Program-made: the position numbers and the translations under genes
NCBI GenBank assembly: GCA_022828105.1
Contig: JAJEJC010000006.1
Location: 1 to 64,000 of the forward strand
Source: Dehalococcoidia bacterium
GTDB lineage: Bacteria > Chloroflexota > Dehalococcoidia > Bin125
Direction of reading: 5' to 3'
DNA length: 64,000 nucleotides
The notes under the pieces: model-generated
The model's database searches: none
What the model was told of the DNA's origin: nothing
What the model saw: the letters and a program-made list of their open reading frames with translations, nothing else
Shown: positions 1-53,002 of the stretch, piece after piece
How the letters are laid out: every line of letters begins with the position of its first letter
Position numbering within the stretch: position 1 is the stretch's first letter

Positions 1-9
1 TTCCGATCT
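1..9. other. Probable Illumina adapter remnant at contig edge
   Basis: The first nine bases, TTCCGATCT, are identical to the 3' end of the standard Illumina adapters and are followed directly by repeat sequence. This suggests that the window begins at an assembly end with untrimmed adapter. A chance match is possible at nine bases. Confidence 0.55.
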
Positions 10-47: not shown

Positions 48-99
48 GCCCCGAATGGTGCCCCAACGTAATCTCTCACGCCTCGACCCCCAAACCCTC

Positions 100-125
100 T
101 TGACTGGGGGGGGGGGGGGTATAGG
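100..125 (+). promoter_or_regulatory. Candidate promoter with a G14 spacer tract
   Basis: TTGACT (100-105) is separated from TATAGG (120-125) by an uninterrupted run of 14 G (106-119). The spacer is three bases short of the usual 17, so length changes in the tract could alter promoter strength. The -10-like hexamer lacks the final T. The same bases could also be the remains of a CCCTC/GGGGG hairpin repeat, and the contig edge makes the tract length unreliable. Confidence 0.35.
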
Positions 126-200: not shown

Positions 201-2363
201 ATGATTGGAACCCTTGCGCGAAAGCGCACCAACTGGGCGGCCCTGGCAGTACTCGCCGCGCTGGTCGCTGCGATGTTCGTCGCCTTGCAGTCGGCCTCAG
301 CGGCTGGTTGTGTGACAAACCCGAACATCGTGCTAGGCACAGGTGACACCTGTGAAGTCGTGCACGACGGGTTTGAGTCCGCTGAATCAAGTGACACCGC
401 AGTAGCTACTGTTACCGCCACTCCGGACGCAGATGCGACAAACGACATTCCTGACGGCCAGGTGACGATCACTGCCGTCACAATCGGTACGGCAACCATC
501 ACGCTCCGGGACAATGGAGTAGACGACACCGCGAACAACGCGGACGACGTGACCGTCGAATACGAGGTCACGGTTGCCGGCTTCGCCATCTCTGCACTCG
601 CAGTCAAGGGCGATAGCGACAACGTGGTCAGCGCGGGTCCGCAGGTTACAGTCACTGCGAAGCTGCGTTCTGCAGTGGGGACTTCGGCCGTTCGACTAAC
701 GGTTCCCACCACTGGTCTGTCGATTCACGACCCGGGCGCCACTGACGCAGCTACGGACGACTCGACGACGCAGACACAGACGAAGACCGTTACGGCTGCT
801 GGAACGCAAACCCTTGAGTTCATCGTGAACACAGCGGGCGCACCGGCTGGAGACTACGCTCTCACCTTCACCGCTGATCAGGACGGCAACTTCGCCACCA
901 GGGATGGTGCGACTGAGGCTGCCAAGCAGGCGACTCAAGCGTTGACGCTCACCATTGGCGATCCGGGCATGGGTTTGGCCTCGGCGACTCTGTCGCTTGG
1001 TAACAGCGCGGAAGACCTCCCTTACACCGACGCTAACGAGGCGGTGCCCGAGACCGGCTCGGCTGCTGCCGCTGGCGGCAGCATCAACCTCGTGGTTGAA
1101 GCGTTCGACTCTCTGGGCGGCAAGGCCAACAGCAGCGCCGTCAACCAAATCATCGTGATCGCTCCCGGCGGCACGATTACCAGTACGCACGACACTGGAG
1201 CCAACGACACGAGCGGCAATGACATCACCGCTGGTGGCAGCTCGAGTGCGACACTGAGCGAAGTTGACGCCGACACATCCTCCGCGGACGACGTGGGTGA
1301 CGTTGGCCAGCGAACCGTCATCACTGTGAGCAAGGCTGACAGTAAGCCGGGCACGGTCACGGTCTACGCGATTGTGAGTGGCCCAGGCGGCGCGGCTCGC
1401 ACCGAGGATGTCACCCTGACCTTCGCCGGTCAGGCAGCCTCAATGAGCATCGCCGATGCGTCGGAATCTCTGCTCAGCGTCAATACCCTTGGCGACAACC
1501 CTGAGACTGATGCTGTCGAAGAAGACTTCGTCATCAAGGACACCATCAAGCTCGTGGTGACCGCCGAGGACGCGGGCGGCAACACGACCGCTCCGCCGAC
1601 CAGCAATGTGTCGATCGTGATCACCGATCCCGATGGCAAGCGCCAGGGCACCTCGGTGATTGGCCGCAGCCAGCCGACCAAGGTTGGTCCCAGGTACCTG
1701 ATCACGCTGACCGGTAATGGCACAGCGACCGCGCCGCTCAAGGCCGGTAACTGGACTCTCATTGCTACCAGCGGCAAGCTCGAAGCGACCGCTACGTTTG
1801 CAGTCGCCGGCCCGCCGGCCGACGTGGCGGTCTCCGCCAGCCAGACCAGCAGCGACACCATTGGTGACGTGATCACCGTGACCGCCAGCGTGACCGACAA
1901 GGACGGCAACACCGTCTCCGACGGCACCACGGTTTCGTTCTCCGCCTCGACCGGCACCGGTCTTGCGGCGATCGGCACTGGTCACAGTGGCAAGGCATCC
2001 AAGAACGGTGAAGCTTCGGTCAAGTACGCCGTCGTTGGCGCCGGTAACTCGGTCGTCAGCGCGACCGCTGGCGACGCCACTGGCGTGGTCGTGATCGTCA
2101 GCACCGCCGGCACCGCCGCCGCCGAGGCCGAGGAAGTCGGCATTAGCTGCCTCAGCAGACTTTCGAGTCACTCGGTCTGGACGTGCGAGACCGGCGCGAA
2201 CGCGTCCGACATCTTCGCTGCATTGGCATCGCGCGACGCCTCGGCGCTGTGGCTGCACAACGGCTCGAGGTGGGTCCGCTACGCGACCCGCGACGGCGAA
2301 GAGCTCCCGGGTTCGACCGACTTCGAGATTCGCCAGCACGACAACCTGTACATCAGCTACTAG
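201..2363 (+). CDS. Exported Ig-like (invasin/BIg-type) surface protein
   Basis: This 720-residue protein starts at ATG 201, seven bases after a GGGAG ribosome site; an upstream in-frame GTG at 147 has no such support. Residues 1-34 form a signal peptide ending ASA/AGC. The body is a series of Thr/Ser/Asp-rich beta-sandwich repeats. The clearest, about residues 540-632, resembles a bacterial Ig-like (Big_1) domain with a DKDGNTVSDGT stretch. The last 75 residues form a separate module with VWTC, ALWLHNGSRW and DNLYISY, similar in style to modules near the start of the protein at 23581. It is probably an S-layer or adhesive cell-envelope protein, acidic and low in Lys. It is followed by a hairpin and a second cell-surface gene. 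The exact ligand is unknown. Confidence 0.8.
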   Translation: MIGTLARKRTNWAALAVLAALVAAMFVALQSASAAGCVTNPNIVLGTGDTCEVVHDGFESAESSDTAVATVTATPDADATNDIPDGQVTITAVTIGTATITLRDNGVDDTANNADDVTVEYEVTVAGFAISALAVKGDSDNVVSAGPQVTVTAKLRSAVGTSAVRLTVPTTGLSIHDPGATDAATDDSTTQTQTKTVTAAGTQTLEFIVNTAGAPAGDYALTFTADQDGNFATRDGATEAAKQATQALTLTIGDPGMGLASATLSLGNSAEDLPYTDANEAVPETGSAAAAGGSINLVVEAFDSLGGKANSSAVNQIIVIAPGGTITSTHDTGANDTSGNDITAGGSSSATLSEVDADTSSADDVGDVGQRTVITVSKADSKPGTVTVYAIVSGPGGAARTEDVTLTFAGQAASMSIADASESLLSVNTLGDNPETDAVEEDFVIKDTIKLVVTAEDAGGNTTAPPTSNVSIVITDPDGKRQGTSVIGRSQPTKVGPRYLITLTGNGTATAPLKAGNWTLIATSGKLEATATFAVAGPPADVAVSASQTSSDTIGDVITVTASVTDKDGNTVSDGTTVSFSASTGTGLAAIGTGHSGKASKNGEASVKYAVVGAGNSVVSATAGDATGVVVIVSTAGTAAAEAEEVGISCLSRLSSHSVWTCETGANASDIFAALASRDASALWLHNGSRWVRYATRDGEELPGSTDFEIRQHDNLYISY

Positions 2364-50466: not shown

Positions 50467-50575
50467 CTGGACCAAGAGTCGGACTGCGCTTGCGAGGACC
50501 GCAGGTATGCTGCGCGTCACTGACCTTTGAACGGTTCGAACGATCTGTGGTGTCTGCAGCATGTGAGGAAATCCA

Positions 50576-53002
50576 ATGCGCCCGTCCTTCCGTATCCCCC
50601 CCCCCCCGCAGTCAATGACGGTCGCCGCGCTCGCGCTGGCCGTGGCTGTGACCGCTCTGATCAGCGTGCTGGCCTCCAGCAATGCCAGCGCGCACCCGGG
50701 ATCCGAAGACCCATCGGTCCGCGTCGCCGCGCTCAAGAGCGACGACGGGACGGTGCGGGTCAGCGTGCAGACGCTCGGAGCCGACGGCGAGTGGGGCGAG
50801 CGGATGCTGCCGACCAGGCGAGTAGTCCCGACTGATTCGCCGGTCGATACCTGGCTGCGCAGTTCACAGGTCGACATCGGCAGCGGCGGCGACCCGGCCC
50901 CGCTGTTCTGCGTGGTTGCCCATGGCGCGCCCGACGACCGATTCTGGGTCAAATTCCGCGCGTACCTGTACCAGTCCGCATCCTTGACCGACACCAACCT
51001 GCGCTTTGAGACGTACCTGGACGGCGCCGATCAGGCCGCCGCGCTCGAGCGCTGCCTCGCCGACGGCGCCGCCGTCGTCGCCTCGACCCTGGCCAGTCCC
51101 GACGCCGTACGCGAGACGCTGCTACAGGCCCGCGAGGCGGAGGTGCGAGTCGTCACCTTCAACGCCGGTGTCGAGCACGCCGAAGGGGTCCGCTCGCAGG
51201 TCCACATCGCGCTCAACGACCGCGCCGCCGGAGAACTGGCCGGACGCCAATTCAATGAGAGCGGCATTACCGGTCAGGTCGGCTGCCTGATCCACGAGCA
51301 GGACAACCTCAGCCTCGAGCATCGCTGCGACGGGCTCGAGGCAATTTACGCAGGCGCGGGCGTGACGCGCATCCGGCTCGATGAAGTCGCCTCGCATCAG
51401 CAGCGCGCTCACGACGAATTCATCGCCATGCTTGGCGACAGATTGAGCGACGAGCAGGGGCCGCGATACGACGCCGTGCTCACGCTCAGCGCGGACTCCA
51501 TGCAGTTCGCACTCACAGCCATTCAGCGTCTCGACGGCGGAGCCGGCGATCTGCGCCTTGCTTCGGTCGGCGCTTCCCGCGAAGACCTGGCAGACTTCCC
51601 CGACGCGCTGCTTGAGCAACACCTGGACGTGTTGATCAGCGACAGCGTCGAGACCCAGGGATTCTTCGTCGCCAGCGCAATGCAGCTCGCCTACAACCTG
51701 CACCACGCGGTCTACATCAATCAACCGCAGCTCTGGCTGGCCGATCCTGCGCTGGTTGGCCAGGACGCCACGGGAGGCAACGCCGCCACTGCCGCCTCCG
51801 CTTCGCTCGAACGGCTGATCGAACAGTCCAACGCGATCGATACCCAGCACGACGGCGTCAAGGTCCGAGTCTCCGCGCTCAGGCGTGCCGACGGCTCGAT
51901 CGTCTTTGCAGTCCAGACTCTGCAAGCCGACGGCAGTTGGAGCGAACCGCAGTTGCCTCAGCGCCGTGTCGTCGCGGCCGACGCGCCGAGCGGCGTCTGG
52001 CTGCTGAGCTCCGAGGTTGCACTTCCCAGCGCCGATGCAGCAGAGGAGCCGCTCTTCTGCGTGGTGGCGCACGGCTCCAAGCAGGACCGCTACTGGCAAG
52101 TCGCCCGCGCCTACATGCACATCTCCGCCCACCTTGCCGACACTAACTACCGCTACGAGTCCCATCTCGACGGCGCAGACCAGGCGGCCGCGATCGACCG
52201 GTGCAGCGCCGACGGCGCCGCCGTGATCGCCTCCACCCTCGCCGATCCCGAGGCGGTGACCGATTCGCTCCTGGCCGCAAAGGCGGCAGGCGCGAGGATC
52301 GTCACCTTCAACTCCGGCGCGAGCTTCGCCGAGGCCGCCGGTTCTGAGATTCACGTCGCGCTGGACGACCGCGAGGCGGGCGTCAGAGCCGCCCAGCGGA
52401 TCAGCCAGCTCGGCGTCACGGGTCCGATCGCTTGCGTCATGCATGAGCAGGGCAACGTCGGACTGGAGGAGCGCTGCGAGGGACTGGAAGCGTCCTACCA
52501 GGGCGCGAGCGTGCGTCGGCTGCACCTGACCGAGGGTGCGACGGACGAGCAGGTCGTCGAAGAACTGATCGCCAAGCTGACCGATCCCGAATGGTCCGAT
52601 GTTGAGATGGCGATGACGCTCAACGCGAACACGCTGTTCAATGCGCTGGACGCCTTCGACCAAATCTACGCCGCGGACAACGATCGCACGATCCGAATCC
52701 TGCCGATCGGATCGCACGTCGATCTCAGGCTGACGGACCTCGCCGCCAGGCAGCGCCACATGGCGTCGCTCTTCAACGACAGCGTGGAGTCGCAGGGCTT
52801 CCTCGTCCTCAGCGCCATGCAGTTTGTCCACAACCGTCACACGCCGCCCGAACTGGTCGGCAGCCCGCAACTCTGGCTGGCCACGCCGTTCGCGCTCAAC
52901 GCTTCCAGGGCGCAAACCGACGTGGAACGGACGCGGATGATCGTGCAAACGCTCCTGCGCTACGTCGCCGAGGCCGCTGCCGACGACGAAGACGTCGATT
53001 AG
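50576..53002 (+). CDS. Exported tandem solute-binding protein (two type-1 periplasmic-binding folds)
   Basis: This 808-residue protein starts at ATG 50576 with GAGGA six bases upstream. Codons 7-11 lie in a run of 12 C. A signal peptide follows, ending ASA/HPG (about residue 39) and lacking a lipobox Cys. The mature part is a tandem duplication (about 45-400 and 425-790). Each copy has a short beta prefix (VSVQTLGADG; FAVQTLQADG), then LFCVVAHG, YLDGADQAA or HLDGADQAA, DGAAVVAST and VTFNAG or VTFNSG. It resembles sugar-binding or BMP-type proteins. No ABC permease is adjacent, so it may act as a free sensor or scavenger. A re-start at Met14 (50615) has no ribosome site. Confidence 0.78.
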   Translation: MRPSFRIPPPPQSMTVAALALAVAVTALISVLASSNASAHPGSEDPSVRVAALKSDDGTVRVSVQTLGADGEWGERMLPTRRVVPTDSPVDTWLRSSQVDIGSGGDPAPLFCVVAHGAPDDRFWVKFRAYLYQSASLTDTNLRFETYLDGADQAAALERCLADGAAVVASTLASPDAVRETLLQAREAEVRVVTFNAGVEHAEGVRSQVHIALNDRAAGELAGRQFNESGITGQVGCLIHEQDNLSLEHRCDGLEAIYAGAGVTRIRLDEVASHQQRAHDEFIAMLGDRLSDEQGPRYDAVLTLSADSMQFALTAIQRLDGGAGDLRLASVGASREDLADFPDALLEQHLDVLISDSVETQGFFVASAMQLAYNLHHAVYINQPQLWLADPALVGQDATGGNAATAASASLERLIEQSNAIDTQHDGVKVRVSALRRADGSIVFAVQTLQADGSWSEPQLPQRRVVAADAPSGVWLLSSEVALPSADAAEEPLFCVVAHGSKQDRYWQVARAYMHISAHLADTNYRYESHLDGADQAAAIDRCSADGAAVIASTLADPEAVTDSLLAAKAAGARIVTFNSGASFAEAAGSEIHVALDDREAGVRAAQRISQLGVTGPIACVMHEQGNVGLEERCEGLEASYQGASVRRLHLTEGATDEQVVEELIAKLTDPEWSDVEMAMTLNANTLFNALDAFDQIYAADNDRTIRILPIGSHVDLRLTDLAARQRHMASLFNDSVESQGFLVLSAMQFVHNRHTPPELVGSPQLWLATPFALNASRAQTDVERTRMIVQTLLRYVAEAAADDEDVD
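50596..50607 (+). repeat. C12 homopolymer inside the 5' coding end
   Basis: Twelve consecutive C between CGTAT and GCAG, covering part of codons 7-11 (Ile-Pro-Pro-Pro-Pro) ahead of the signal peptide. A change of one or two bases would shift the frame before the exported part is made, so the tract could act as an on/off switch. Sequencing or assembly error in its length is also possible. Confidence 0.8.

Follow-up and report, generated by a model that had tools for sequence, protein, structure and literature searches.

In the 64,000-nucleotide stretch of Dehalococcoidia DNA analysed here (hereafter the window), a run of 12 cytosines near the 5' end of the gene encoding an exported 808-residue binding protein is probably a working contingency (phase-variable) switch of that protein, a reading we hold with good confidence. 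The preliminary description of this DNA had placed the run in codons 7 to 11 of such a gene, and the sequence, the open reading frame and a Peripla_BP_4 match agree on this. According to the model we favor, replication slippage would cause the run to gain or lose C at high frequency; C9, C12 and C15 would represent the ON state, in which the signal peptide and the 808-aa binding protein are read in the frame of the start codon, and all other lengths would be OFF, with translation ending early, perhaps accompanied by a leaky restart at an ATGA in C11 and C14. With respect to this protein, a population would then comprise both ON and OFF cells, and C12 would be one of a genomic set of seven switches acting on surface proteins and R-M enzymes. 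That the run changes length in living cells, and that there is a benefit from switching the 808-aa protein, we infer.

The features of the locus are as follows.

50565 to 50569, plus strand: GAGGA, resembling a Shine-Dalgarno sequence, 6 nt upstream of the start codon (from sequence)
50576 to 53002, plus strand: gene of the 808-aa exported binding protein, ON at C12 (open reading frame, Peripla_BP_4, dN/dS)
50576 to 50692, plus strand: signal peptide, comprising the n-region MRPSFRIPPPPQSM, a hydrophobic core and ASA followed by HPG (by eye and hydropathy scan)
50596 to 50607, plus strand: C12 tract, codons 7-11 (sequence, run scan, frame table)
50615 to 50618, plus strand: ATGA, in which codon 14, an in-frame ATG, shares bases with the TGA closing the C11/C14 frame, a possible restart (restart inferred)

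From ATG 50576, the C12 tract is in frame, spanning the last base of codon 7, codons 8-10 and the first two bases of codon 11, and translation yields MRPSFRIPPPPQSMTVAALALAVAVTALISVLASSNASA followed by HPG, 808 residues in total, ending at 53002. A Pfam profile search matched Peripla_BP_4 along two stretches (E 1e-29), and the product looks like an exported protein with two periplasmic domains of the sugar-binding type. The tract falls within the n-region of the apparent signal peptide, which was called by eye and with a hydropathy scan. The gene is under purifying selection, as dN/dS against two orthologues is about 0.18-0.19, which argues that it is maintained by selection. The exported family to which the protein belongs shows strong local expansion, with 4-28 matches per genome across the genus.

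When we recomputed the reading frame for runs of C8 to C16, the full frame (807-809 aa) was obtained at C9, C12 and C15, an early stop after 12-14 residues at C8, C11 and C14, and a later stop after 85-87 residues at C10, C13 and C16; by this table, the gain or loss of one unit from C12 is predicted to toggle expression of an otherwise intact gene. The earlier claim that slippage by one base would stop synthesis is correct as to loss of the 808-aa frame, but perhaps too strong for C11 and C14, for which the TGA at 50616-50618 overlaps the in-frame ATG at 50615-50617. Given this overlap, a restart at ATG 50615 is conceivable, possibly giving a shortened protein devoid of the charged n-region, and an in-frame ATG 3' of the tract could weaken the switch.

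Long C/G runs are otherwise scarce in this genome. Over 2.74 Mb, 17 runs of at least 8 were seen vs. about 499 expected from composition, a depletion of about 30-fold, with the longest runs measuring 10, 10, 11, 12, 12, 14, 14, 14 and 15. Conditional on the 17 runs of at least 8, there were seven runs of at least 11 where 0.7 were expected (P 2e-6) and four of at least 14 where 0.03 were expected (P 2e-8); the tail of run lengths is well above geometric decay, and C12 is longer than chance would give. Base composition on its own would predict about 18 runs of at least 11, but this null is unsuitable here because it overpredicts the runs of at least 8 thirtyfold. Both runs of 10 (L034 near 7407 and L037 near 7659) were set aside because an interspersed palindromic repeat, CTCTGCCTTCGGCATCTCCCCCCGC...GCGGGGGGAG, contains them.

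The seven tracts of 11-15 are found in R-M genes (n = 4), in a promoter spacer (n = 1) and in the 5' coding part of genes for exported proteins (n = 2), and, to judge from their positions, all seven sit where slippage would matter. The association with exported-protein genes that had been proposed earlier thus stands for the two coding tracts and the promoter tract, and confinement to such genes was rejected in view of the four R-M tracts. Two of the seven tract-bearing genes are out of frame as assembled. One of these, L031, encodes a secreted GmrSD_C-like protein with G14 right after the signal peptide; the other, L036 (5861-7515, minus strand), is a type III Mod gene (PADLOC MTase_III, E 3e-156) with a sense C11 at its 5' end, at which the N-terminal MPTLEFKGKQHIYAHH frame and the body are out of register. 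L036 thus combines a type III Mod gene with a frame-shifting repeat near its 5' end, the combination by which phasevarion MTases are recognized, and we regard it as a candidate phasevarion switch. In L032, a BsaWI-type restriction enzyme and an MTase meet at G12, followed by TAG GTG, probably a stop and then the MTase start. In L033, G15 separates the HEAT-like half from the MTase half of a type II MTase, with a CfrBI-type restriction enzyme downstream, and L035 encodes an Eco57I-like protein of 1003 aa (a weak match, E 0.001) with G14 in frame.

The promoter-spacer tract lies near the beginning of the window.

100 to 125, plus strand: TTGACT (100-105), G14 (106-119) and TATAGG (120-125), in promoter-spacer layout (from sequence)
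201 to 2363, plus strand: gene of a 720-aa exported protein starting at ATG 201, 3' of the G14 tract (no Pfam match)

The preliminary description had counted this G14 as a second long tract at the 5' end of an exported-protein gene; it does lie upstream of such a gene, but in the promoter spacer and not in codons, filling the whole interval between TTGACT and TATAGG and ending 81 bases before ATG 201. Orthologous promoters carry G16 in G013 and G17 in G008, with the promoter tract lying at -95 relative to the ATG in both species for which this was measured, and seven paralogous promoters have no tract. TTGAC-polyG-TATA as an order-wide promoter layout was rejected, since only the two orthologous promoters matched. 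Near-consensus -35/-10 spacers filled by poly-G of differing lengths were observed at window 100-125, L117, L099 and L136, the last of these (from G037, another family) reading TTGACA, G13 and TATAAT.

To place these tracts in a wider frame, tract loci were gathered from 15 genomes of the genus and one sister genus; after removal of those close to a contig end, to Ns or to another run, 51 clean tracts of at least 11 remained. Eighteen of them, vs. 1.2 expected, are followed within 150 nt by an N-terminal hydrophobic segment; such positions account for 2.3% of the same DNA (p ~5e-17, an approximate value because orthologues and paralogues were counted and the gene calls were home-made); these 18 represent about 15 independent tracts, one being from the sister genus. 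The scan for enrichment at the starts of exported-protein genes, as suggested in the preliminary description, hence revealed a non-random placement which, together with loss of the 808-aa frame upon one-base slippage, supports its contingency-switch reading. Among the tracts 5' of hydrophobic N-termini, 13 have C as the sense base, and the layout of the C12 gene, with prolines ahead of the signal core, is also present in L107, L112, L114, L115, L164, L165, L093 and L097. Some tract-bearing exported proteins contain fn3, LRR, Ig-like or animal-type haem-peroxidase domains, and relatives of the 808-aa protein in other genomes have tracts near their starts (L203, L163, L098). Across the genus, the tracts are enriched in surface-structure and R-M genes; the R-M siblings include the type III Mod L036, the type IIG/Eco57I-like L035 and L106, the C5 MTase L100 and type II MTases, and out-of-frame genes comprise L031, L036, L100 and L165.

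Sibling tracts also differ in length between species. The gene in which HEAT-like and MTase halves are joined via a poly-Gly tract has G15, G13, G9 and G14 in four species (L033; L227, L228, L229), covering all three frames. Because no ATG, GTG or TTG occurs between the tract and the conserved MTase start in G007 and G008, the HEAT and MTase halves in these two genomes are presumably translated as one fused product; the PADLOC profile aligned from its position 114. At the junction of the BsaWI-type restriction enzyme and its MTase (L182 1927-3648; L032; L094), the run is G12 in G000, G16 in G008 and G16 in G007, and the two genes form an in-frame 573-aa fusion in G007 but are split by TAG GTG in G000 and in G008; the length of the run could thus determine how restriction and modification are coupled. 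MAGs from different projects share sibling tracts along with their conserved flanks, and conserved flanks around a variable run are consistent with the pattern of a hypermutable tract, albeit without proving that populations switch.

On the G strand, GCTTCG[A/G] is seen upstream of many of the tracts, with its first base 23-30 nt from the run, and TA or a stop codon often comes directly after the run. Carriers of GCTTCG are unrelated genes (L032, L033, L093/L097, L098/L130, L100, L117, L175, L182), with a variant, GCCTCGA, at L103 and at window 94-100. With known homologues removed, GCTTCG is positioned at -28 to -25 in 7 of 41 tracts, vs. only 3-5 for the top-scoring 6-mer when all offsets were allowed in 200 random sets; chance co-occurrence with G-runs was rejected on this comparison, which corrects for all 6-mers and offsets. 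In addition, a pattern search of the genus gave 10 forward hits and none in the reversed control. Neither the coding strand nor the reading frame of the motif is constant, and the HEAT-MTase gene has it in different codons in G000 vs. G007; as it spans different genes, strands and codons, it appears to be a feature at the DNA level. A role for GCTTCG as a -35 element was not supported, as no consistent -10 was seen by eye at the right distance. By their sequence, many poly-G tracts of the genus are part of a composite element, GCTTCG[A/G], about 20 nt, G(9-18) and often TA. In the peroxiredoxin intergenic loci L098 (G008) and L130 (G012), the tract lies between inverted arms, GCTTCGA...TCGAAGC and CCGCTTCG...CGAAGCGG, and the arms have changed together between the two genomes. 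The presence of GCTTCG beside many tracts could point to a mechanism controlling tract mutability. That a sequence-specific DNA-binding protein at this site drives or limits changes in G-run length, as a guided contingency system, seems to us quite unlikely; if it were true, C12, which is without the GCTTCG element, would be of the ordinary kind.

Against the switch reading of C12 stand the orthologues, and also its lack of the GCTTCG element typical of many siblings. By tblastn, the 808-aa gene has orthologues in five species, each represented by a single genome, at 62-84% identity, and the tract is absent from all five, with short C-rich stretches at the same place; a conserved tract at this locus was accordingly rejected, and C12 appears to have arisen recently in this lineage, as would follow from orthologues without it. 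In the G004 orthologue (L041/L060), the signal-peptide region is out of frame with the rest in the absence of any homopolymer, reflecting a pseudogene or a sequence error. These tract-free orthologues are part of the reason why our confidence in the switch is not higher, and they lend themselves to the view that a C-rich ancestral stretch merely grew by slippage and drift, possibly mutable yet without selected switching, a mutational accident in a lineage with real switches elsewhere; the n-region of a signal peptide likely tolerates prolines as well. We nevertheless consider this view unlikely, because persistence of C12 by drift would be improbable in a genome that removes long C/G runs about 30-fold, and the same layout recurs independently in several genes and species. 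The genome has a MutS1-type repair gene, in view of which MutS loss was not supported as the cause of the tracts; repair of this type may also reduce slippage rates, which would count against a switch.

It is also conceivable that tract length mainly alters the amount or export of the protein in a graded manner, via the length of the n-region and the ATGA restart. The overlap of the C11/C14 TGA with an in-frame ATG would fit such tuning, as would siblings located ahead of the coding sequence, in 5' UTRs or promoters (L113, L119, L154 and window 106), where graded effects are likely; however, the restart product would have neither the positively charged n-region nor its own ribosome-binding site, and the C10 and C13 frames offer no such restart, making this account very improbable. 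An error of assembly or sequencing, whereby the run is spurious or of wrong length, deserves mention insofar as the contig ends of related MAGs do carry clusters of poly-G (L124, L167, L170, L172, L197-L199), which we excluded as artefacts, and window 1-9 reads TTCCGATCT, which resembles an Illumina adapter end left in the assembly. C12, however, is positioned 50.6 kb inside the contig, in unique coding sequence and in frame, and its siblings have conserved flanks in MAGs of different projects, rendering an artefact extremely improbable. We therefore retain the contingency switch as the preferred reading of C12.

Homopolymer phase variation is known mainly from cultured pathogens, and some relatives of this Dehalococcoidia genome are probably sponge-associated. 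A literature search, in which subscription journals were thinly covered, found no report of homopolymer phase variation in Chloroflexota or sponge symbionts; the mechanism and its targets are known, and the new element is the lineage, the uncultured Dehalococcoidia, apparently unreported in this respect. In these bacteria, the candidate switch set would act on exported proteins and R-M enzymes and, if this is true, cells within a natural population would differ in surface and methylation state, a heterogeneity hidden by bulk MAGs.

Promoter-spacer homopolymers act as switches in porA and opc of Neisseria; G14 between TTGACT and TATAGG in the window and G13 between TTGACA and TATAAT in L136 are alike in layout, albeit in different organisms and genes. 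We know of no layouts in the phasevarion literature that correspond to the poly-Gly HEAT-MTase fusion or to the tract at the junction of restriction enzyme and MTase. The tracts in L036, L035, L106, L100 and the type II MTases resemble those of phase-variable MTases and phasevarions (PMC7394358, PMC6265453, PMC4889913), a likeness taken from the genes, two of these siblings being out of frame as assembled. Homopolymers at the 5' ends of genes have been proposed as a general device in a paper whose text makes no mention of Chloroflexi or Dehalococcoides (PMC2831843), and the tracts described here have the same placement and would follow the same logic. The Campylobacter phasome consists of G/C homopolymers of at least 7, several per genome, in surface-related and R-M genes (PMC6321876), and it has in common with the present set the G/C tracts in surface and R-M genes whose length bears on frame or promoter spacing. 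In contrast to Campylobacter, the Dehalococcoidia tracts are longer (11-18) and few, their host is a high-GC uncultured member of the Chloroflexota, many of them form proline runs in signal-peptide n-regions and many are accompanied by GCTTCG, with switching being predicted.
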